IMG/VR virus record: IMGVR_UViG_3300042448_000354
Coordinates: 1 to 28,514 of that record
Strand: one strand, 5' to 3'
DNA: 28,514 nucleotides
Origin: a virus
Position numbers and translations under genes: made by a program. A model generated the notes under the pieces. It did no database searches. It saw only the letters and a program-made list of their open reading frames with translations, and was not told where the DNA came from. This document shows, piece after piece, positions 17,111 through 28,514 of this stretch. Position 1 is the stretch's first letter. Each line of letters starts with the position of its first letter.

Positions 17111-18664
17111 TTAGAATTGAGGAATTTCTTCAATCAATACTGTTCTAGATAAATCTTCAATGAATACATCACAACGATCTTTCATCCAGATTTCGTATCC
17201 TGGGAATTTATTTGCAGAACTCATACCTTGAGACTTAGCAAAGCCTAAGTGGTGACGAGTACCATCAATATAACCCCAAGTCATAGAAGGAGCACCCTTC
17301 ATACGTACTTCACGAATGTTGTTGATCATAGAACCATCAGACATTGGAGATACATCAAACACCATAAATACTGGAGTTGACTTCTTATTCTGACCAAATT
17401 CTAAGTTTGTTTGAGGAAGATCTAATTCTTTCAAGTGGATCAATTCAACACGACCAGTCTCACGTGTAACCATTGCATCAAATGCAAAGTTGTAAGTAAT
17501 GTGTTGACCTTCTCCTTGTAAATATCTGTTACCAGAATCAGCCATGAAAGTTAAACCTGAATTCAATGCATCATTCTTTAAAGCTTGTTGGAACACGTCA
17601 AAACCAGCTTCGTTAGTGTACATTTTAACTCTACGATCCTTAACATCAACACGTCTGTAGAACAAGTCACCAAACACTGAACGAATCAAGTTTGCAGTGA
17701 ACTCACCACGGTTGTATTGTACTAAGTTACCGTTATTACGCATTCTGTGGTAAACACCAGCAGATGTACGCTTTAATTCTTGCTTAGAACCATTAGTCTT
17801 CACGGTACCAGGCTTAGCCCAGATCATACGCTTAACTTTTAATTCTAACATAGACTTACGCATCCAGAACTCAATAAATGGTTCCCACTTAACATCATTA
17901 CGAGTTAAAGGTAATTGGTTACGTCTTTGAGGAGCATATACTAAAATGTCTAAAGCTTTACCAGAAGCATCAACCATCATCTTATCATCAGCCCACTCAG
18001 TGATTTTGTGCTCATAACCATATGCAGAACCTAAAGATTCAAACATTGTGATTTGCTCACCTAAACGAGGAAGACCTAATAAGTCTTGGTCAAATTCACC
18101 AATTGCAGCATCAACTAATTCCAATTCAATACCAACTCTTAAGAAGTTAGGACTAACGAAATCTACAGTTGGATTGTCTGTAACTAAAGTGAAAGTGTAT
18201 AAGTAACCCATGTTCCAGTTTACTGGATCTTTGATTACATAGAAACGAGGACCATACTGACGAGTACCTACAGATACAATTGCATTCTTAGAGAACTCAT
18301 TAGTATCAATTACTAATTGGAATTCTTGACCATCAATACCTGGCTTGCTCAGCTCTAAAGTACTTGTTGGAATGTCAATGATTTTAGGGAACTTGTATGG
18401 AACTTGTACCTGCCACTTCCAAGCATCACTGTTGTTGTCAATATAGTAAGGAGTGCTCTTGTTAATCATGTCCAAGAAGTCATTACTGTAAAGAGAGCTT
18501 TGAGTATACAAACTGATAATTTTCTTATCATAATCTGCTGGCTCTGTAGAGTGAAAGCTTTCCAAGTGGTTAGCATCTGTTAATTTACCTACAGCACGCT
18601 TGTCCATAGAAGCTACTCTTGCGTAAGTAAAACCAGTTAAACCTGGAATTGTTTGAATTGCCAT
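17111..18664 (-). CDS. Major capsid protein (crAss-like, HK97-fold presumed)
   Basis: This 517-residue protein starts MAIQTIPGLTGFTYARVASM. Its length, its place just after a scaffold-like gene, and features such as DNHLESFHS-like start (residues about 31-39 ANHLESFHS), TPYYIDNNSDAWKWQVQVPY, and WMRKSMLELKVKRMIW fit the crAss-like major capsid protein. The family is taken to have the HK97 fold and forms the icosahedral shell. Codon use is biased toward CGT for Arg and frequent-use codons, in keeping with very high expression. It lies 36 bases after the scaffold-like gene, with a long A-run as leader and no Shine-Dalgarno. Two RNA structures follow its stop. A non-capsid identity is unlikely given the full set of neighbours. 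Confidence 0.85.
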   Translation of the reverse strand: MAIQTIPGLTGFTYARVASMDKRAVGKLTDANHLESFHSTEPADYDKKIISLYTQSSLYSNDFLDMINKSTPYYIDNNSDAWKWQVQVPYKFPKIIDIPTSTLELSKPGIDGQEFQLVIDTNEFSKNAIVSVGTRQYGPRFYVIKDPVNWNMGYLYTFTLVTDNPTVDFVSPNFLRVGIELELVDAAIGEFDQDLLGLPRLGEQITMFESLGSAYGYEHKITEWADDKMMVDASGKALDILVYAPQRRNQLPLTRNDVKWEPFIEFWMRKSMLELKVKRMIWAKPGTVKTNGSKQELKRTSAGVYHRMRNNGNLVQYNRGEFTANLIRSVFGDLFYRRVDVKDRRVKMYTNEAGFDVFQQALKNDALNSGLTFMADSGNRYLQGEGQHITYNFAFDAMVTRETGRVELIHLKELDLPQTNLEFGQNKKSTPVFMVFDVSPMSDGSMINNIREVRMKGAPSMTWGYIDGTRHHLGFAKSQGMSSANKFPGYEIWMKDRCDVFIEDLSRTVLIEEIPQF

Positions 18665-20640: not shown

Positions 20641-23223
20641 CTATTTAGTTTTCTTGTTCGCCCTACCTTTAGCATTCTCTTTAGCAATAGCTAAATCATT
20701 TGCTTGATTCTCTCTAGATACTTTTAACTTTTCTTTTTCTACTTCAAGTTTTTGTAAAGCTAATGTATTTTTAGATTGAATATCGTTCATTTTTAATTGA
20801 TAATCATTAGCAGCTTTTGTTTGTTCACGCATTAATTTATCAACTTCTAAAGCATCAGGAACTCCATTTATGTCTGTATCTGGTAATCCCCCTTTAGATT
20901 CAGCAGAAATAATAGCAATTTCTTTCTTATTAATTCTGTCTAATGCATTTTGATAATCATCATGAGCTATTTTTTCAGCTTGCATTTGTTTAGCACTTTC
21001 AATAGCTGCCATAGATTGCTGTTGCTGTTGCTCAAGTTCTTGTTGCTTTTGTTGCATTTGTTGATCTTGCATTTGATCTTGACGATCTTTAAGTGTCTTA
21101 AACACCTTCTTCATCTGACGTACAGAGTTAGTGCTGTAAAGCTCAATGATATCATGTAATGAACCACCGTTTTGTAAAACAGCTTGAGATAAGCCTCTAA
21201 TTTCATTAAACATTTTCTGATCTTCTGGTCTATTAGTTAAATACACTTTAAGATCACGGAACTTAAGATCTGTACCATTCACTTGTACAAATGCAGATTC
21301 TCCTTCGTTAGTAATATATGAAATAGTTGACTCAGGTTTTTTAGCTTCTACATATAGTGATGCATCAATTATAGCTTGATAAAGCTGACCTAATACGTAT
21401 TCATGTGCAACAAATATAGGCTCAGTTTGAGAATATGATTGTGTAATAGCAGTGTTAGTACCTGTAGCTGATTCACTAGCTGAAATAGATCCCATACGTT
21501 GTCTAGACATACCTATCAATTCCCAACACTCATTCTTTAATTGTTGAGCTAGTGTATATCTAGATTGGATCTCTTGCGTACGTGTAAGATCAATATCACG
21601 GAACTGGTTAAATGATGATGGGCTCTTCAAATTTTCTGGAGAGTCATCAATAAACATTACACCACGGTTACGTGCTTCCATTTCCCATACATCAAGAGCA
21701 TCTTGAGCATCTCCATCTTTAGGAATAGGAATATGTCTAATAGATGTTAAATACACCTTACCAACTTCTTTTTCTAACAGCTTGTATAATTGATTCATAC
21801 AAACGTTATAAAGAACCTGAAAAGGTTTCATCATATCTACCAAGCTTCTAGCTTCTGTATTCTTAACTTCATGTACTAATCCAATGATAGGACAATAAGG
21901 AAGTAATTTATATGGTTTAATATGATAGATGTCTGGACCAATCTTAACTCCTTGGTACCATTCATTAATCCATCCCCACTCTAACGATTGTTGTGTAGGA
22001 ATAGTTCCAGATTTGTAGTTTTCATCTACTAGTAAAGATTGCTCATTACCTAACTCATCTAAGTAAATTAATTTACCAATCTTCTTTTTAGAAATCCAAT
22101 ATGTACGTACAACAACATACTTGTAACCAAATGAACTAACATTAGATGTAAGACCTAAGAAGTCTTGTAAGCCATCATTGTTCTCTTTCATTTCAGACTC
22201 AATTACCATTCTTGTTTGTAACACTAATGGATCATATGTATCATATTGTACTGAATCAATACCTGGAATAGCATTAGGATTACCTAGATTAGATTCACGT
22301 ACGTTAATCAAACCATAGTCTTGTAATGAACTACGTAAGTGATCAATCTCTTCTTTAGTGATATCAGGGAACGTTTCAATAATCTCAGATAGTTCCATCA
22401 CCATAACTGTACCAGCAGCATATGCTCCTTGTGCACGTCCTGAAGGATCTGAAATATATTTTCTATCTGGTGTAGTTAAGAAGAATGTATTCTTAGGGTT
22501 AGCCACCTCAATATTAAATCCAACTTTTGAGTTATCTTCATATACATGATAGAACTCTCTAGAAGAAATTAATAAATCTCTAAACGCATCTTCACTTTTT
22601 TCTTTTAAAATAAACTCAGCTTTCTGAGCTGTTAATACATGATTAGCCCACTTCTCTGCAACAGATGTATAAGAATCAAGTTGATCTTTTACATCCTCCA
22701 TTGTCATTTTTTGCAAGTCTTCGTCAGAGATTTCTTCTCCTTTTAAATCAGCTTGTTCTTGTATTTTAGACTGAGCTTGATTAATTACATAATCTTGTAA
22801 TATACTTGTTTTAAATTCAAGCTCTTCAGACTTACTATCATCATCAAATGCCTTCACACGGAAAGCATCTGGACGTTTAGAAATCTCACCTACTAATTCA
22901 TTAATAGGTGTTGTCATTATAGAATAATGTTTTACATATGCAGGAAGCTGTAAATCAGCTGTTAGCATATCTGTAAAACTTCTCACCTCAGGTTCTTGGT
23001 AAAAATCCTCATGTCTTAAAATACCCTTAACAAGATCGTAGTTCTTAACAAACGTATCACGGTTCTTTACATACTCAGCGTAAGCTTTGTTTGCAAAGTA
23101 GTCCATTGTATTCTTTATCCAACTCTCATCCATCTTTTCCTTCTCAGTTTTAAACTGATCAGGGAAGATGTTTAAATAGGCATACCTAATTGTTGCGTCT
23201 TTTGTATATCTTATAATTGCCAT
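20641..23223 (-). CDS. Portal protein (crAss-like)
   Basis: The 860-residue protein follows TerL with a one-base overlap (TAATG) and precedes the scaffold and capsid genes. It fits the crAss-like portal in size and layout. Residues about 30-120 are helical (TMDYFANKAYAEYVKNRD). The central part holds clip/stem-type sequence (PFQVLYNVCMNQLYKLLEKE; RQRMGSISASESATG; LAQQLKNECWELIGMSRQRM). The last 150 residues are a Gln/Lys/Glu coiled coil (QQQQQSMAAIESAKQMQA, DLAIAKENAKGRANKK) as in barrel-forming portals. Portals form a 12-fold ring at the capsid vertex through which terminase pumps DNA. TAG serves as its stop. No other interpretation is likely given its partner genes. Confidence 0.85.
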   Translation of the reverse strand: MAIIRYTKDATIRYAYLNIFPDQFKTEKEKMDESWIKNTMDYFANKAYAEYVKNRDTFVKNYDLVKGILRHEDFYQEPEVRSFTDMLTADLQLPAYVKHYSIMTTPINELVGEISKRPDAFRVKAFDDDSKSEELEFKTSILQDYVINQAQSKIQEQADLKGEEISDEDLQKMTMEDVKDQLDSYTSVAEKWANHVLTAQKAEFILKEKSEDAFRDLLISSREFYHVYEDNSKVGFNIEVANPKNTFFLTTPDRKYISDPSGRAQGAYAAGTVMVMELSEIIETFPDITKEEIDHLRSSLQDYGLINVRESNLGNPNAIPGIDSVQYDTYDPLVLQTRMVIESEMKENNDGLQDFLGLTSNVSSFGYKYVVVRTYWISKKKIGKLIYLDELGNEQSLLVDENYKSGTIPTQQSLEWGWINEWYQGVKIGPDIYHIKPYKLLPYCPIIGLVHEVKNTEARSLVDMMKPFQVLYNVCMNQLYKLLEKEVGKVYLTSIRHIPIPKDGDAQDALDVWEMEARNRGVMFIDDSPENLKSPSSFNQFRDIDLTRTQEIQSRYTLAQQLKNECWELIGMSRQRMGSISASESATGTNTAITQSYSQTEPIFVAHEYVLGQLYQAIIDASLYVEAKKPESTISYITNEGESAFVQVNGTDLKFRDLKVYLTNRPEDQKMFNEIRGLSQAVLQNGGSLHDIIELYSTNSVRQMKKVFKTLKDRQDQMQDQQMQQKQQELEQQQQQSMAAIESAKQMQAEKIAHDDYQNALDRINKKEIAIISAESKGGLPDTDINGVPDALEVDKLMREQTKAANDYQLKMNDIQSKNTLALQKLEVEKEKLKVSRENQANDLAIAKENAKGRANKKTK

Positions 23224-25265
23224 TATGTAAACAATTTATTTCTTTTATATTTATTATGAGAGGTTCCAAACATCCCACCTCTTGATTCTGTAAACAGTAC
23301 GTTTCCTTTCTTCTTACTAAACATTGCCTTCACTCTATCATCAGATGTTCCACCAATCTTACCCATAATAGGGTCCATCTTTAATGCTTGTGCAATGGCT
23401 AACTCTGCAGCAATGATTCTATCAAAGTTACCTGAATCATTGTATTGGATAATCTCTTCAAGCAATACAGGATCAAATATCTTACTCACACCTAACACTT
23501 CTCTTATAGTATCACCAGCCTCATTTGTTTCTTTGAATATCACAGACTCCATATACTTCTTCAAGCAGGTGTGAAGATACTCAATTATTTTATCACTTGA
23601 ACGATGAATTCCGTAATCTCTTTTAACTGTTGTGTTTGGAACAATTTCTTTAAGCCATTCAGGCTGCTTCTCTAAATAGTGAGCATCCCCTTTGGCCTTC
23701 ATATATTCTATAAATGATATATCATCATTCTCACACAGTGTTCTTGCATTGTAATACTTAATAAGAAGTCTAGCTTGTTCTTCCCAAATCTCTTTCTTAT
23801 CAGGTCTTGCACAATACGAAGCTACGAACATATCTTGATACTTCTCACCACTAATTTCATGCATTCTTTTATATATGAATACAGAACCAAGTGAACTTGA
23901 ATACACAGACTTACCTTGTCTATAAGGGTCAACTCCTGCTACATACAATCCATAAGGAGGGTTTTCTACAGGGAATTCATATATAACTATAGGAGCATCT
24001 TTTGTATCACTGTTCTTTAATGGAAAGTTAGATATAGGAAGCTTGTCTGTAAACTCATGCTCAATACCATTTTCTCCAGAGAACAATGTAACAGGAGTTC
24101 CTGTTCTTTCTTGTTGTAACAGTCTGGTTTTCTGTCTCTTAGCTGATTCAATATCAAAGATGTTTGTATCCTCATTCAAGAAGATATCATCCACCTCCAT
24201 TGGGTAGTACATCTTCTCCTTCAAATAAGCAATTCTATCTCCAGCCTTTTTAAGTCTTTCTAGGTTCTTCTCTGTAATCTCTTTAGCTCTTTCCTCATCA
24301 CCCACTAACATTTCAACGTTATATAAGTCTGATCCAGTAGGCTCATTTAAGAAAGCTCCTAATGTAGATTTCTCTTTAGCTTCCATTCTATATTTAGCTG
24401 GGATGAATAAGCCATGTATACGCTTATCATCTTTTGCATTATTATATGTAAGGAAATTAAAGTTGTCTACGTCAAACATCAGGGATTTTGCATCCTGAAA
24501 TTTCTTCATATCACCACCAGTGCCTGTGAGAATTGGAGAACATCCCCAACCATAGGGTGTAGTGAAACCTGGTATAGCCGCCTGTAAACCTCTAAGAAAA
24601 TTTCCTTTACCAATCTCATCTATAATTAATTTACGTGGTTTTGTACCTGCAATTGCTTCTTCATTATTACCTTCATCAAGGTTACGTATCAGAATGGAAG
24701 AGAATGGGATACGTTCACCAGATTTGGTTTTAATACCTAATGTGACCTGGTTTTTCCAGTTATCCTCAATTCTCTGCCATCTCCAATACTCAGGGATAAA
24801 GTTTAATCCTTTATCTATTTTATCCGTAATAAGTTTTATATCTGGTGCATTCAAACCAGCAATAATATTCTGGGAGTTCTCATCAAATGTTGCACCCCAT
24901 GCAATATAGGATGCTTCAAGAACGGATTTAGCAAAACGTCTAATACCTAGAATAACCAAGCCCTTTTTTTCCTGTTGGGCTCTATCAATTTCGTTTGTTA
25001 CCAGCCACTCATTATCTCTTAAAAACGGATTAGCATATTTTTGTGCAATTCTTCCTCTATCATCTATGACATCCACCTCAGTGTGCCATATATTTAGGTG
25101 CCAATATAAAAAGGGGTTGATATACACACCCCCCATCATAGCACCATTTAAACATAATTCTCTATGGAAATCAAAGAACGGTTTACATTCAGCAGATTCC
25201 TTATCAGGAATACGTTTCTGATTTATGAACCAATCTTTGTAATCTATGTTTTGTAGTTCAATCAT
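23223..25265 (-). CDS. terL: Large terminase subunit (packaging ATPase and nuclease)
   Basis: The 680-residue protein has the expected order of motifs. The Walker A-type GIRRFAKS is at 107-114, Walker B LIIDE at 213-217, and a coupling motif TGTGGD at 247-252. The nuclease domain follows, with acidic residues in AGVDPYRQG (D445) and CENDD (511-515). TerL cleaves concatemeric DNA and translocates it into the head through the portal, which is the next gene (one-base overlap). The 110-residue gene just upstream also overlaps its start by one base and may be its small partner. Length is within the usual range for crAss-like TerL. All key motifs are intact. Confidence 0.95.
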   Translation of the reverse strand: MIELQNIDYKDWFINQKRIPDKESAECKPFFDFHRELCLNGAMMGGVYINPFLYWHLNIWHTEVDVIDDRGRIAQKYANPFLRDNEWLVTNEIDRAQQEKKGLVILGIRRFAKSVLEASYIAWGATFDENSQNIIAGLNAPDIKLITDKIDKGLNFIPEYWRWQRIEDNWKNQVTLGIKTKSGERIPFSSILIRNLDEGNNEEAIAGTKPRKLIIDEIGKGNFLRGLQAAIPGFTTPYGWGCSPILTGTGGDMKKFQDAKSLMFDVDNFNFLTYNNAKDDKRIHGLFIPAKYRMEAKEKSTLGAFLNEPTGSDLYNVEMLVGDEERAKEITEKNLERLKKAGDRIAYLKEKMYYPMEVDDIFLNEDTNIFDIESAKRQKTRLLQQERTGTPVTLFSGENGIEHEFTDKLPISNFPLKNSDTKDAPIVIYEFPVENPPYGLYVAGVDPYRQGKSVYSSSLGSVFIYKRMHEISGEKYQDMFVASYCARPDKKEIWEEQARLLIKYYNARTLCENDDISFIEYMKAKGDAHYLEKQPEWLKEIVPNTTVKRDYGIHRSSDKIIEYLHTCLKKYMESVIFKETNEAGDTIREVLGVSKIFDPVLLEEIIQYNDSGNFDRIIAAELAIAQALKMDPIMGKIGGTSDDRVKAMFSKKKGNVLFTESRGGMFGTSHNKYKRNKLFT

Positions 25266-25597
25266 TATTTTCTATTTGCTAAAAACTCAGCAGCAGCTCC
25301 TGACAACTCACCCTTTCCTCTCACTTCCACCTTAGCTTCTTCCATGTTTCTTAGCTTATCTACCACTTCTACTAGAGCAAGGTAGTTCTTCATTGTCTCC
25401 TGTACAAACTTACCCTGAGCTTCAATACTAGCTATTACCATAGGTAACATTCCTCCTTTAGCTGTAGGCTTCCACTCAATTCTATCTTTCAATTCATGTA
25501 GTGGGTTTGCATTTACATAAGCTTTCCAGGAAACAAGCTGTGCTTCTGCCCATTCAAGCTCTGTGTTTATATATGTAGTTTTTTTAATAGTCGCCAT
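25265..25597 (-). CDS. Small protein before TerL, small-terminase candidate
   Basis: This 110-residue protein (MATIKKTTYINTELEW) is mostly helical, with a likely coiled region at about 58-92 (IEAQGKFVQETMKNYLALVEVVDKLRNMEE) described here by position: key residues Q61, Y73, V78, L83. It ends AAAEFLANRK. No HTH can be called by eye. Its stop overlaps the TerL start by one base (TAATG), and its start overlaps the 93-residue gene by 14 bases. In many tailed phages the small terminase is encoded just ahead of TerL, and this size and helicity would allow it. That is context only. crAss-like small terminases are not clearly defined to my knowledge. Confidence 0.5.
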   Translation of the reverse strand: MATIKKTTYINTELEWAEAQLVSWKAYVNANPLHELKDRIEWKPTAKGGMLPMVIASIEAQGKFVQETMKNYLALVEVVDKLRNMEEAKVEVRGKGELSGAAAEFLANRK

Positions 25598-25865
25598 CTT
25601 CTTCTTCTTTTAGTATATTATCAAGGTCCATACCTTCTTTTATAATCTTATCAATCTCAGACTCATCTGTATGTGGAACGTCCATTTCAATCTCTGTCTT
25701 ATATTTTTCCAAAGCAAAGACTAATTCTTTGTCTGTCATCCCCCATATATCTCCATAATCACTAAGAGCTGTAGCAAGATGCCTTCCTAAATTGTATGTA
25801 GGAAAGTCTTTATGTAGTTCTTGTAGTATATAAAGAGCTTTTTCGTAGTTGTTCTTTTTACTCAT
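25584..25865 (-). CDS. Small acidic helical protein of the packaging operon
   Basis: This 93-residue protein is acidic. Its N-terminal two thirds look helical (EKALYILQELHKDFP; LGRHLATALSDYGDIWGMT; KELVFALEKYKTEIEMD) and a disordered acidic tail (ILKEEEDGDY) follows. I recall small proteins with the SDYGDIWG-TDKEL pattern in crAss-like and related phage packaging regions, but no function is attached to them. It overlaps the gene upstream by four bases (ATGA) and the gene downstream by 14, so it is translated as part of a tight series. It could be a packaging accessory or head-completion factor. Confidence 0.55.
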   Translation of the reverse strand: MSKKNNYEKALYILQELHKDFPTYNLGRHLATALSDYGDIWGMTDKELVFALEKYKTEIEMDVPHTDESEIDKIIKEGMDLDNILKEEEDGDY

Positions 25866-26140
25866 ATTAAATCATTCAAGTCTTTATCAGACAGTTTTTG
25901 ATTCAGAAGCTCACTTATATCCATTCCTTGTATAGGAACATTTTTAAAGTTTTCTTCAGCTCCTTCCATCATATAGTCTTTTGTAAATGATACAGCCATC
26001 CTATCTTGATCACTCTCTTGATTATCATCTGGAGCACCTGTAATATCAATATAGTCCACACCTTTATTATAGAGATCTACTAAGATTTCTATAAAATTAT
26101 CTAGGTGAATCTTCTTAATATGCATTACCTTATTGTCCAT
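25862..26140 (-). CDS. Small acidic protein of the packaging operon
   Basis: The 92-residue protein (MDNKVMHIKKIHLDNF) contains a helix and strand pattern NFIEILVDLYNKGVDYIDI at about 15-33, an acidic linker (APDDNQESDQDRM), and a helical end (ISELLNQKLSDKDLNDLI). There is no catalytic motif, Cys or membrane segment. It overlaps the zinc-ribbon gene upstream by 11 bases and the next gene by four. Its position among other small conserved genes between the IHF-like gene and TerL suggests a regulatory or packaging accessory. I cannot assign a family with confidence. Confidence 0.5.
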   Translation of the reverse strand: MDNKVMHIKKIHLDNFIEILVDLYNKGVDYIDITGAPDDNQESDQDRMAVSFTKDYMMEGAEENFKNVPIQGMDISELLNQKLSDKDLNDLI

Positions 26141-26429
26141 GAACTTCTTTTTTTAATGCTTCCTCCTCTTCTACATTGGCTATAACAGCTTCCCATTTCT
26201 TAAGAGGACAGTCACATGATAAACATTTTGTTTTAGCAATTAACATACATCCACAATTTGTGCAATGTACATCAGGTCTGACAGTTTTATGTTTTGTTGA
26301 TATGAGATCACACTCCTCACATATAGCCATTCTTTCATCACTCACTTGTTTAATGTAAGTTCTCATATTCTCAGCTGGGAAAAGGTTATTTTTCCAACCC
26401 TCATATATCTGGGAGAAGTTAATCTTCAT
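26130..26429 (-). CDS. Zinc-ribbon protein (eight cysteines)
   Basis: The 99-residue protein has four Cys pairs: C37/C40 (ICEEC), C56/C59/C61 (CTNCGC) and C69/C72/C74 (CLSCDC). This pattern is consistent with a double zinc ribbon. The N-terminus (INFSQIYEGWKNNLFP) resembles a short helical docking segment, and the C-terminus is acidic (NVEEEEALKKEV). Zinc ribbons in phages bind DNA, RNA polymerase or partner proteins; which applies is not visible. The start is set by an ACTACATATG leader with two AAACCAA copies (26439-26445, 26449-26455), though it overlaps the upstream gene by 11 bases. A transcription or packaging cofactor is plausible. Confidence 0.65.
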   Translation of the reverse strand: MKINFSQIYEGWKNNLFPAENMRTYIKQVSDERMAICEECDLISTKHKTVRPDVHCTNCGCMLIAKTKCLSCDCPLKKWEAVIANVEEEEALKKEVHGQ

Positions 26430-26772
26430 ATGTAGTTCTTGGTTTAAGTTGGTTTATCTGCACTATTGTCTTTTCTAATGTGACAATAGAAGACTTTCTC
26501 TTTTGCTCAGACGTATTAACATCATTAATAATACGTTCCATAGCTAGCTTTTTAGCATTTAGCTTCTCCACCTTCTTTCCTGCCTTCTTCCTGTTAAAGA
26601 AGAGCTTTCCAAATCCAGAAATTTCTATGCTGTCATTTAAGTCCATTGCCTCATTGGCTGATTGGAACTGATGATTGACCACTGTCTCAATTGTCTTCTC
26701 TGAAACCATCATCTTAACAGCTAGTGTCCTGACTAGATAATCCTTCACTGACATTGAGATTGGCTTATCCAT
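26419..26772 (-). CDS. IHF/HU-like DNA-binding protein (head operon copy)
   Basis: This 117-residue protein matches the IHF/HU-like family conserved in crAss-like phages. It has an N-terminal helix pair (SMSVKDYLVRTLAVKM, SEKTIETVVNHQFQSANEA) followed by SIEISGFGKLFFNRKKAGKK (48-67), the characteristic GFGxF-x-x-x-x-x-A turn into the DNA-gripping arm. The C-terminal 45 residues are a helical extension absent from bacterial HU. Such proteins bend or compact DNA and could aid packaging or control the operon. It overlaps the winged-helix gene by 8 bases and the zinc-ribbon gene by 11. A second, more divergent relative is at 4789-5265. Confidence 0.8.
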   Translation of the reverse strand: MDKPISMSVKDYLVRTLAVKMMVSEKTIETVVNHQFQSANEAMDLNDSIEISGFGKLFFNRKKAGKKVEKLNAKKLAMERIINDVNTSEQKRKSSIVTLEKTIVQINQLKPRTTYED

Positions 26773-27127
26773 GACTTACAGTTATTTGTAAGACAATGTC
26801 TTTCTCAAAGTCTAGGATGATGACTGGGTTGACCTTCACCTTGGTACCGTCCTTGACAAATACACCAATACGTTTAAGTTTGGAGATGATGTTGTTGATG
26901 GTTGGGGGCGAGCTTTTGTACTTCTCACAGAACTCTTGACGAACATTGGCATAGGAGATGTTACCTTTGATGGCTGTGAAAGCAATCAATTGCACCTCAC
27001 GTTCTGTCAATCCAAGACCATTCACAGCTGACAGTATATTGTAATACTTCTCAGCCACAGCGTAGGAATCCCCCACTGGTCTCTTCATTTTCTGAACAAT
27101 TAGCTTCTTGTTGTTTGTTGGTTCCAT
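26765..27127 (-). CDS. Winged-helix DNA-binding protein, first gene of the late operon
   Basis: The 120-residue protein shows a helix-turn-helix/winged-helix core. LGLTEREVQLIAFTAI (38-53), ISYANVRQEFCEKY (57-70), the recognition-helix candidate SSPPTINNIISKLKRIGVFV (72-91), then the wing DGTKVKVNPVIILDF (93-107). It begins about 9 bases after the predicted transcription start of a consensus promoter, so it is nearly leaderless, and it borders the repeat-rich intergenic region. I infer a regulator or site-binding protein, possibly acting on the adjacent symmetric repeats. Since it heads the packaging operon, a small-terminase-like DNA recognition role is an alternative. Confidence 0.65.
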   Translation of the reverse strand: MEPTNNKKLIVQKMKRPVGDSYAVAEKYYNILSAVNGLGLTEREVQLIAFTAIKGNISYANVRQEFCEKYKSSPPTINNIISKLKRIGVFVKDGTKVKVNPVIILDFEKDIVLQITVSHG

Positions 27128-27139
27128 AATTAGTTAAAG

Positions 27140-27170
27140 CAAAGGTATGTATATTCCTTTGATTGTCAAA
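27140..27170 (-). promoter_or_regulatory. Consensus Bacteroidota promoter of the packaging/head operon
   Basis: In the minus direction TTTG (27167-27170) is followed after exactly 19 bases by TACCTTTG (27140-27147), a full match to TTTG-N19-TAnnTTTG. The start codon at 27127 lies only some 13 bases beyond the -7 element, so the message should have a leader of under 10 bases. Confidence 0.85.
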
Positions 27171-27278
27171 TAACTATTTTAGTTATCTGGAATAGGAATG
27201 CTATATTATGCACTATTTTTATAATCCATTATATTCTACCAATAAATTGTAGATAGTGTATTAGCTGATTAGATGTAC

Positions 27279-27303
27279 TTAGGGCCCCCCCTAAATCCCC
27301 CCC
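27279..27303. repeat. Inverted repeat with two C7 tracts
   Basis: TTAGGG (27279-27284) and CCCTAA (27289-27294) form a perfect dyad around CCCC. C runs of seven lie at 27285-27291 and 27297-27303, five bases apart, so the minus strand has two G7 tracts in otherwise AT-rich DNA. They could fold as a quadruplex-like structure or slip during replication. Confidence 0.7.
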
Positions 27304-27350
27304 AAAGTTACGAAGACTATTTTGAAACTACCAAATTTATTTTCACCTAT

Positions 27351-27383
27351 TATCAAAACTTGCAAAATATTATAGTTTTGATA
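27351..27383. repeat. Perfect 10-bp inverted repeat
   Basis: TATCAAAACT (27351-27360) and AGTTTTGATA (27374-27383) are exact reverse complements with a 13-base spacer. No T-run follows, so an operator or cruciform is likelier than a terminator. Confidence 0.75.
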
Positions 27384-27438
27384 CAACAGGAGTTTATAAT
27401 TTTGGTGGAACATTCCATCACTATACACCATAACATAC

Positions 27439-27499
27439 CATAATGTGTTATAAAAGCAACATTGTTAAGCTGAGCATATCCCTTATAAGACACATTATG
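27439..27499. repeat. Long inverted repeat
   Basis: CATAATGTGTTATAA (27439-27453) pairs with TTATAAGACACATTATG (27483-27499): ten bases, a two-base bulge, then five more, across a 29-base loop. Its right arm runs into the four-site TGTTCAC array. Confidence 0.75.
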
Positions 27500-27551
27500 T
27501 TCACAAACAAAGCTTGTTCACGAATACGTGAACAGAAGGAAAATGTGAACA
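27498..27551. repeat. Perfectly symmetric four-site TGTTCAC/GTGAACA array
   Basis: TGTTCAC occurs at 27498-27504 and 27515-27521, and its complement GTGAACA at 27528-27534 and 27545-27551. Gaps are 10, 6 and 10 bases, so the whole block is a dyad. The inner pair extends to TGTTCACG / CGTGAACA around AATA. The layout implies binding by two protein dimers or a tetramer, as at an operator or replication initiator site. Confidence 0.85.
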
Positions 27552-27555
27552 ATAT

Positions 27556-27605
27556 GTAAAGCTATAGCTTGACAAAACGTAAGATGGGTAAAGCCATAGC
27601 TTGAC
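27556..27605. repeat. Two 18-bp direct repeats containing a palindrome
   Basis: GTAAAGCTATAGCTTGAC (27556-27573) recurs at 27588-27605 with one change, a 32-base period. The first copy contains the perfect palindrome AAGCTATAGCTT. Confidence 0.8.
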
Positions 27606-27635
27606 TTTTGGCAGAATATAGACTTGTTATAACTT

Positions 27636-27674
27636 GCCAAATCAGGAAGTGAAACACAGCCAAACCTGGAAGTG
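27636..27674. repeat. Two 16-bp direct repeats
   Basis: GCCAAATCAGGAAGTG (27636-27651) recurs at 27659-27674 as GCCAAACCTGGAAGTG, two changes, period 23 bases. Confidence 0.7.
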
Positions 27675-27703
27675 TGTCACAAATATTTGAAAAACTGTGA
27701 CAC
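27674..27703. repeat. GTGTCAC/GTGACAC inverted repeat
   Basis: GTGTCAC (27674-27680) and GTGACAC (27697-27703) are exact reverse complements with a 16-base AT-rich spacer, the spacing of an operator with half-sites on one DNA face. Confidence 0.65.
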
Positions 27704-27740
27704 TCTTGTAACATATTTATATAGTTATTTGTTACGAAAA

Positions 27741-27799
27741 ATGGGGGCAAAGTTTAATTTATGGGTGCAATTTATACTGTAAGTATAAAAATGGGTGCA
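27741..27799. repeat. Three ATGGGKGCA direct repeats
   Basis: ATGGGGGCA (27741), ATGGGTGCA (27761) and ATGGGTGCA (27791) start 20 and 30 bases apart, close to whole helical turns. A perfect 8-bp dyad, TTTATACT (27771-27778) with AGTATAAA (27782-27789), lies between the last two. Confidence 0.65.
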
Positions 27800-27824
27800 T
27801 GAAACATTTGGAAAAATTCATGCA
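27796..27824. repeat. Perfect 8-bp inverted repeat TGCATGAA/TTCATGCA
   Basis: TGCATGAA (27796-27803) and TTCATGCA (27817-27824) are exact reverse complements with a 13-base spacer, the same spacer length as the dyad at 27351-27383. Confidence 0.7.
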
Positions 27825-27866
27825 AACATTTAACATGGGGCCATGGAACATTTAACACAGGGGCCA
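27825..27866. repeat. Two direct repeats AACATTTAACA plus GGGGCCA
   Basis: AACATTTAACA occurs at 27825-27835 and 27847-27857, period 22, each followed closely by GGGGCCA. A partial copy (AACATTTGG) sits near 27804. Confidence 0.65.
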
Positions 27867-27901
27867 CTTAAGCCATTGGTCCTCAGATGATTATACCCAA
27901 G

Positions 27902-27915
27902 GTTCCATGTGGAAC
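27902..27915. repeat. Operator-like palindrome GTTCCA-TG-TGGAAC
   Basis: GTTCCA (27902-27907) and TGGAAC (27910-27915) are exact reverse complements two bases apart. A related dyad, TGGAA-CA-TTCCA, is at 27406-27417. Confidence 0.6.
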
Positions 27916-27956
27916 TATTTTACAAAATTTTTTTCTAGATGTTACAACCCCCTTAT

Positions 27957-28029
27957 CCATGGGAGGAGAGGCTACTCCACATGGTGACCCCTCCTGTGAT
28001 TTGAGCGATTGGGGTAGCCCCCAGGGGTC
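27957..28029 (+). promoter_or_regulatory. Structured leader with two GC-rich hairpins before the plus-strand gene
   Basis: First hairpin: CCATG plus GGAG (27957-27965) pairs with CTCC plus CATGG (27975-27984) with one bulged A. Second: GACCCCT (27986-27992) pairs with AGGGGTC (28023-28029), enclosing an inner GGGG-TAG-CCCC (28011-28021). They end 54 bases before the plus-strand ATG and would fold in its leader RNA. I find no match to a known riboswitch. A phage polymerase promoter or DNA-level site is also possible. Confidence 0.5.
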
Positions 28030-28083
28030 TCAAAGACACAATTAAACATTGGGAACAGAACACAATCTGAACAAAAACACATT

Positions 28084-28514
28084 ATGGCACAGCCACAAAC
28101 AAAAACAGCAAAGACAGCAGTAGCTAAAAAGCCTGCAATTTTTAACATCAGAAGAAATGCACCTGAAACTAACGGCACCACAGAGCGTGTGTTGGCAGGC
28201 ACATTACAAGACTATCTTGTAGATAGCGAAGAATTATCATTGAGTGATAATGTTAACTATCCTGTAATGAATGTTAAGACTGACCAAGCTGTCACTCTTA
28301 AAATTAATTATGAAGGTACATCTGACTACGGTTTATTGTGGTTCAGTCGTCCATTGAGTGCAAAGCTTCGTAACAAGTCTATCAAGCTTGCTGATATGTT
28401 GAACTATCCAATTCAAGAGCAACCAATCTTCCAAGATATTGATAATACAATACCTTTGATTAGTGATGAAACAGGCGAACAAGTCGTTAAGTATATCATT
28501 AGTAATCCAGAAGG
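28084..28514 (+). CDS. Divergent plus-strand protein of unknown function, partial (C-terminus beyond right edge)
   Basis: An ATG at 28084 opens a frame of 143 codons with no stop up to the edge. The protein starts MAQPQTKTAKTAVAKKPAIF, a basic Ala/Lys/Thr tail that looks disordered, then a mixed alpha/beta part (LQDYLVDSEELSLSDN, YEGTSDYGLLWFSRPLSAK, KLADMLNYPIQEQPIFQD, GEQVVKYIISNPEG). Arg is CGT four times in the later part, suggesting high expression. I recognise no family. It is the first gene of the opposite transcription unit, which in crAss-like phages usually carries replication and early functions; a DNA-binding or single-strand-binding role is a guess only. No good TTTG-TAnnTTTG promoter is seen upstream, so another polymerase may read it. 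Confidence 0.7.
   Translation, partial: MAQPQTKTAKTAVAKKPAIFNIRRNAPETNGTTERVLAGTLQDYLVDSEELSLSDNVNYPVMNVKTDQAVTLKINYEGTSDYGLLWFSRPLSAKLRNKSIKLADMLNYPIQEQPIFQDIDNTIPLISDETGEQVVKYIISNPE

Follow-up and report, generated by a model that had tools for sequence, protein, structure and literature searches.

An orphan array in a phage genome resembles the operators of AbiEi antitoxins and may act as a titration decoy

The virus record analyzed here (IMG/VR IMGVR_UViG_3300042448_000354; its 28.5 kb are hereafter the window) carries at 27498–27551 four copies of the heptamer TGTTCAC in mirror order with gaps of 10, 6, and 10 bp. With the half-site reduced to its six-base core, these 54 bases read TGTTCA-N11-TGTTCA-N8-TGAACA-N11-TGAACA, that is, two inverted 23-bp arms around an 8-bp center (table 1). 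Arrays of this kind have a rigid geometry, are located at the start of AbiEi genes in bacteria, stand as orphans in phages, and are present or absent between near-identical phages. We judge the chances to be evenly balanced that the window array is an AbiEi-type operator bound in trans by the AbiEi protein of the host, most likely as a titration decoy. Taken separately, binding of host AbiEi to the phage array is probable from the sequence comparisons described below and, given such binding, titration would be a somewhat better than even guess as its purpose, rather than control of phage genes. What is new here is a known operator type in a place and role for which we found no report in the literature.

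The window encodes leftward terminase, portal, and major head protein genes according to PHROGs. The best single match of its terminase (23223–25265) is that of the Leptolyngbya phage Lbo-JY46, a cyanophage (40%), and it matches at 33% those of Cellulophaga phages phi17:2 and phi4:1, which we take to be crAss-like phages. The crAss-like label given by the first-pass annotation is in line with the Cellulophaga matches. A blastn search of positions 26400–28514 against named phages revealed no distant match. The heptamer TGTTCAC occurs six times in the whole window for 5.16 expected, and four of the six lie inside the 54 bases of the array; the unusual feature is the arrangement of the copies, not their number. 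The mirror arrangement and its three gaps are exactly as first annotated. The mirrored flanks ACAT and ATGT, also pointed out at that stage, are part of a 14-nt inverted repeat (86% identity). Within the array, the six central bases, GAATAC, are nonpalindromic and gap 3 does not mirror gap 1. The starts of the two flanking divergent genes are 371 and 533 bp away.

Table 1. Features of the window and array places inspected in bacterial genomes carrying 11/7/11 arrays
Feature	Location	Strand	Basis or remark
Half-site 1, outer left, TGTTCAC	27498..27504	+	pattern match
Half-site 2, inner left, TGTTCAC	27515..27521	+	pattern match
Half-site 3, inner right, GTGAACA on +	27528..27534	-	pattern match
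Half-site 4, outer right, GTGAACA on +	27545..27551	-	pattern match
Left 23-bp arm TGTTCA-N11-TGTTCA, proposed AbiEi-type repeat	27498..27520	+	outer geometry as in arrays at 22/29 AbiEi_2 genes; 23 bp given for AbiEi repeats in the available text of PMC3985639
Right 23-bp arm TGAACA-N11-TGAACA, proposed AbiEi-type repeat	27529..27551	-	same as left arm
956-bp intergenic region holding the array	27128..28083	.	between leftward gene 26765-27127 and rightward frame at 28084
57-bp segment present in the window, absent from L100	27499..27555	.	alignment; limits uncertain to within a few bases, each end having TAT
120-aa winged-helix-like protein, first candidate binder, not supported	26765..27127	-	co-occurrence, profile comparison
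Array at AbiEi_2 gene	L354, L358, L359		
Array before AbiEi_3/AbiEii pair	L350		
Array at far end of DUF6088/AbiEii pair	L349		
Array directly after HNH_2-type gene	L348 2642-2694		Pfam
Array directly after HNH_2-type gene	L352 2506-2558		by likeness
Array following a HipA gene and preceding, by 65 bp, a small gene and then BrxA, BrxB, BrxC (BREX)	L355 2564-2616		
Array by Schlafen AlbA_2 gene	L356		
Array near HipA-like gene	L351		by eye
Array, no such neighbor recognized	L353, L357		

The exact four-site pattern of 28 letters was found in ten other IMG/VR contigs. Nine are from relatives of the window phage and the last one, L002, is a 180-kb contig whose array differs in its gap letters and takes up the whole stretch separating a tRNA-Cys gene from a tRNA-Arg gene. 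A 3-site form of the pattern retrieved 15 viral and 57 bacterial-genome stretches. A 20-letter form matched 32 viral contigs, against none for the same letters reversed, and a form with a center of 7–8 bp matched at least 119, against none with a center of 9–10 bp. As reversed letters or a wrong center spacing give no viral match, the geometry of the array is rigid. Similarly, among 395 genomes, 21 contain arrays with 11/7/11 spacing and up to two mismatches, and the reversed control gave none. The array is thus neither due to chance nor peculiar to the window phage. This supports the initial view that such symmetry is rarely accidental and points to a dimer-of-dimers DNA-binding protein: the array is symmetric in a functional way and would accommodate a dimeric winged-helix DNA-binding protein at its two inverted repeats. 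Some arrays have a further half-site at the same period (G350 25133–25198, G369 766–831, and G375 17316–17381). Others have mirrored or nearly mirrored gaps too, all 53 bases forming one palindrome (L227, L284, G404:C1:2450435-2450487, and G071:C15:10971-11023).

Many of the bacterial arrays reach up to, or extend over, the start of one recurrent gene. According to Pfam, it encodes an AbiEi_2 protein (E value of 3.3e-31 for L034), an antitoxin and transcription regulator of type IV toxin–antitoxin (TA) systems. Thirty of the 57 loci found with the 3-site pattern have an AbiEi_2-like gene by our own models, which were built from 13 of these proteins, so that 13 of the 30 positives are the models' own seeds. 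The array lies on or over the start of the frame in all 30, including L018, which ends inside the gene, and L039, two cases unconfirmed by PF09952 in their genomes. At L057, the array is one base before an AbiEi_2 gene running past the end of the locus, and in five more loci (L028, L062, L068, L027, and L043) the array is on the start side of a gene of another AbiEi subtype. In total, an AbiEi-family gene is found at the array in 36 of the 57 loci. For the remaining 21, where some of the flanking proteins were tested against family libraries, no AbiEi neighbor was found; among them the array neighbors a Fic gene (L020), a nucleotidyltransferase gene (L061), or a capP gene (L042).

A sample collected blind to the array gave the same picture. 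In the phylum of G047, the Flavobacterium genome from which L034 derives, 36 of 296 genomes have AbiEi_2, with 39 matches yielding 29 new loci. Allowing centers of 6–9 bp and outer gaps of 10–12 bp and requiring at least 21 of the 24 core letters, we identified a four-site array at the start of 22 of these 29 AbiEi_2 genes, whereas none of 1740 shuffled regions reached 20. The motif and spacing of the window therefore occur at genuine AbiEi genes. Spacings in the 22 are 11/7/11 (12 arrays), 11/7/10 (nine), and 11/8/11 (one). The center of 8 bp seen in the window is thus a minority form in this host sample; the predominance of 11/8/11 among the AbiEi_2 loci found with the center-8 pattern follows from that pattern. 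Among the 21 genomes with 11/7/11 arrays, 12 had AbiEi_2 in the array-blind search. The other nine comprise four searched for AbiEi_2 without a match and five unsearched, and the 12 array places inspected in these nine are described in table 1. Since no AbiEi neighbor was found for 21 of the 57 loci and some arrays are next to BREX, HNH nuclease, or capP genes, AbiEi may not be the sole binder. In L042, the array (1982–2035) follows the capP gene, which is CBASS associated, by 86 bp.

An AlphaFold model of AbiEi_2 (pLDDT of 88) had no Foldseek match in the PDB at an E value of 0.001 or better; the more probable of the partial matches are winged-helix repressors. Residues D34 and K53 are invariant in the N-terminal domain of the aligned AbiEi_2 proteins (L034 835–1836), in a D...(E)xK setting suggestive of PD-(D/E)XK nucleases.

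Operators of this type have been described. In the available text of PMC3985639, AbiEi of Streptococcus agalactiae, a winged-helix antitoxin whose C-terminal domain alone is enough for antitoxicity, binds two 23-bp inverted repeats that start with TGTT and are 3 bp apart in the promoter just before AbiEi, and thereby represses its operon. The window array likewise consists of two inverted repeats of 23 bp, the published AbiEi length, with TGTT at the outer ends. By contrast, the S. agalactiae operator has different letters (TGTTGCTTTTA) and a center of 3 bp instead of the 7–8 bp of the phage arrays, and it is located at TA genes rather than alone (PMC3985639, as far as available). Its exact letters were found in none of the viral contigs. 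As described in the part of PMC7319586 at hand, Rv2827c of Mycobacterium tuberculosis, another AbiEi-type antitoxin, also binds multiple 23-bp inverted repeats, four in number, but arranged as two pairs with 13 bp between the repeats of a pair and 4 bp between the pairs.

In viruses, by contrast with these operators, the array stands alone. At least 142 viral loci, from which L014 with its degenerate fourth site was left out, carry the array by one or the other of two forms of the pattern. We grouped them on the basis of at least two shared protein families into 63 approximate clusters, 47 of them singletons; as the clusters are fragment based, with genes called by a simple frame rule and not by a gene finder, this is an upper estimate of the lineages among these loci. 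An AbiEi_2-like gene is present at the array in one of 143 viral loci among the matches listed, L243. Searched in whole viral records, most of which are fragments, PF09952 was found in none of 16, including the window, and in one of 40 of a second set, which is L243, knowingly included, and AbiEi_4 was found in none of 26. The window array, with no AbiEi gene of its own record starting at it, is therefore an orphan and not an autoregulatory operator.

The array is at one place in each of 16 viral records. In a second set of 37 records, 30 have it at one place and three at two overlapping places, and four, whose gaps the pattern does not cover, gave no match. Two arrays are present in one short locus, L094. 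In the noncore columns, host and phage arrays are correlated (r = 0.592, permutation P = 0.0004, 15 host arrays and 49 phage clusters), as expected from one kind of binder. The phages are varied: the terminase of one cluster is 64% identical to those of mycobacteriophages, and the helicase of another is 40% identical to those of Cellulophaga phages. No array was present in the 8.7 kb fetched of Mycobacterium phage Astro, which is related to one cluster (best score 18/24). Considering proteins of at least 70 aa in the viral loci, no family is common to more than four of the 63 clusters, which makes a binder encoded by the phages close to their arrays less likely. One family of GIY-YIG-like endonucleases, with weak Pfam matches below the cut-off, is encoded near the array in four separate clusters (L232/L254, L240, L002, and L094). 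We also considered the array as the target of a homing endonuclease and rejected this, the GIY-YIG-like family being near arrays in just 4 of the 63 clusters.

The binder is probably the AbiEi of the host because AbiEi genes are the commonest bearers of the array in bacteria, relatives of these proteins bind such repeats, and we found no phage gene tracking the array. In the decoy model, the phage would carry an operator-type site without AbiE genes, and the host's own AbiEi would bind it in trans. Each of the multiplying phage genomes would bring four more half-sites and draw AbiEi away from the abiE promoter of the host, whose AbiE module would thereby be mis-set during infection. Repressor titration, in which extra operator copies on replicating DNA draw off a repressor, is known as a plasmid tool. 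The phage arrays would resemble it in being extra operator copies on replicating DNA, although in the literature we found no natural phage decoy for a TA repressor. Several points count against a decoy. A single array per phage genome would make a small sponge, AbiEi_2 is present in just the 36 of 296 genomes sampled in the phylum of G047, and any effect of titrating an antitoxin should be to release the toxin, an outcome unfavorable to a phage. Since in the available text of PMC3985639 the C-terminal domain is antitoxic by itself, the effect of titration on control of the toxin is not predictable.

The chief rival of the decoy is a cis operator: host AbiEi bound to the array would repress or time a phage promoter, and the phage would in this way read the AbiE state of its host. 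We consider it unlikely, although several observations point that way. The window array is flanked by divergent genes, a position compatible with an operator, and in several clusters the array is less than 100 bp before a gene. Genes around the arrays of the viral loci do not follow a promoter-like layout, however. The gaps holding an array are codirectional, divergent, and convergent in 74, 26, and 14 cases (n = 114), compared with 422, 92, and 61 of the other gaps (n = 575); 12 loci with the array at an edge and 14 with the array in a frame, a class inflated by short frames over tRNAs, are outside these counts. Array gaps are convergent as often as others (12.3% vs. 10.6%, P = 0.62), which speaks against a promoter-only role, and divergent gaps are weakly favored (22.8% vs. 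16.0%, P = 0.10). There is no common neighboring gene and, in the intergenic region of the window, no excess of promoters (five vs. 4.8 expected), a weak test covering the sigma-70 type. This loosely constrained position fits a decoy better than a promoter operator.

The same two readings meet at the tRNA genes. Among the matches listed, 26 of the 142 loci, from 11 clusters, have a tRNA or tmRNA gene no more than 10 bp from the array, and one of these arrays overlaps a predicted tRNA. Striking at this close range, the association is less so over 200 bp, where 27 arrays compare with 9.5 expected at random positions but 17.8 at random noncoding positions. According to PMC7725324, in the text available, one AbiE toxin is a predicted tRNA nucleotidyltransferase, so that a role of AbiEi in controlling phage tRNAs would be plausible and a cis operator is favored by the 26 loci. 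Against this, 16 of them have a tRNA within 9 nt on both sides of the array, which is therefore between two tRNA genes and inside a run, not before it. The available part of PMC7725324 also proposes that phages use tRNAs to counter tRNA-directed AbiE toxins. The arrays adjoining tRNA or tmRNA genes would be, like these tRNAs, a phage feature blunting such a toxin, but that proposal concerns tRNAs and not operator DNA. The position next to tRNA genes may be meaningful in itself. Going beyond the window, we tentatively propose, at somewhat less than even confidence, a countermeasure that needs no gene: dozens of unrelated phages (crAss-like, mycobacteriophage-like, and up to a 371-kb phage) would carry an orphan AbiEi operator, some within tRNA runs, which would capture host AbiEi and couple the tRNA supply or the infection program to a tRNA-directed TA module.

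Comparison of the window phage with its relatives revealed an accessory array that is gained and lost. L100, L101, and L103 are relatives without it. In L100, which is 99% identical to the window in the neighboring 120-aa protein, it is missing by a clean 57-bp indel. Conversely, L152 has flanks 72–75% identical to those of the window around a 168-bp array-holding block that is 97% identical. Across five distinct relatives including the window, variable columns amount to 1 of 28 in the half-sites, 7 of 26 in the gaps (P = 0.022), and 61 of 120 in the flanks. The half-sites therefore look kept where the array is present, with the reservation that the four other relatives were first found by pattern (three by all sites, one by three), so that the conservation of the core is partly sample selection; the unbiased part consists of seven loci recruited by homology, with three distinct arrays.

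The clean indel in L100 also agrees with a role as cassette boundary, in which the array would be an exchange site for defense cassettes and the phage would carry an empty site. The abiE operons of L360 and L362 have an array at both ends, the operon-facing array halves of L360 being identical inverted copies, and L349 and L360 share their downstream flank next to different AbiE-type TA modules, with the array at the junction. We nevertheless regard this role as very unlikely. In 65 AbiEi loci, many of which extend only a little past the operon, a second array beyond it is found at three distinct places only (L201/L362, L211/L360, and L361), and that of L361 is 66 bp before another AbiEi gene. 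Furthermore, arrays keep to the starts of AbiEi genes, and no family of recombinases is found repeatedly next to phage arrays.

More doubtful still is a site for a regulator of the phage itself or an origin, bound by the 120-aa protein or another phage protein. The first-pass annotation had proposed this nearest neighbor as the binder, calling it a winged-helix protein, and it does have a weak HTH_Mga match, below the cut-off. We collected 80 relatives of this protein, of which five with less than 300 bp upstream were dropped. Seven of the other 75 have the array (28/28) and 68 lack it, their best score, 19/28, being at the level of shuffled sequences; three of the 68 have less than 440 bp and could hide an array, and without them the proportion is 65 of 72. 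Some of the array-less relatives are 95–99% identical in the protein. A scan of the whole loci of all 80 with flexible spacing retrieved the same seven at 24/24, the next best scoring 19. The array does not co-occur with the gene, and the profile of the 120-aa protein does not match that of AbiEi_2 (hhalign probability of 4%), which argues against this protein as the binder. The outcome that had been named as fatal to the earlier proposal, flanking genes kept and sites absent, is what most relatives display; it affects the link to the neighboring genes, not the array. Moreover, no gene family near arrays is shared across clusters. In favor of an origin, the intergenic region is long and the minimum of the cumulative GC skew (24000–28514) falls in the 500-bp step holding the array (27250–27749), where divergent transcription alone would give the same; a replication origin, resting on location and this local minimum, was not retained. 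A replication initiator site or a switch between divergent units, the two functions originally suggested, are possible for the window phage alone and are unsupported as general functions because in other phages arrays occur in convergent gaps and between tRNA genes.

The least credible reading is an RNA element, that is a hairpin, a terminator, or a processed small RNA: the hairpin folds (−19.5 kcal/mol), its inner part is flagged as terminator-like by a scan, and processing of the tRNAs would release any array lying between two of their genes, but the two 11-nt gaps pair like shuffled partners (4.02 vs. 4.04 of 11, P = 0.55, 49 clusters), so that a long stem with complementarity along its whole length is not kept, arrays are not enriched in convergent gaps, and a terminator at the AbiEi start is hard to explain. 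The three bases inside the inner half-sites do pair in excess (1.67 vs. 1.09 of 3, 0 of 2000 shuffles), indicating an inner dyad longer than TGTTCA, which is equally expected of the DNA site of a dimer.

If capture of host AbiEi by these arrays is confirmed, phages would act against, or listen to, a TA defense with 54 bases of DNA and no protein, and searches for antidefense genes would miss such arrays. A simple sequence signature may then predict which phages meet AbiE-bearing hosts, and a shared operator code would be suggested for several AbiEi subtypes across phyla. Sensing or countering of AbiE by phages would also become directly testable. We found no report of an AbiEi operator in phages in a literature search that fell short of most subscription papers.

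The intergenic region of the window holds other repeats. Directly to the right of the array are two 18-bp copies of GTAAAGC(T/C)ATAGCTTGAC (27556–27573 and 27588–27605), each near-palindromic. Similar 18-bp copies are present in the same intergenic region of relatives, including the array-less L100, and they are possibly the phage's own operator. Farther to the right, at 27736–27862, short repeats are found around ATGGGTGCA / AACATTTAACA.
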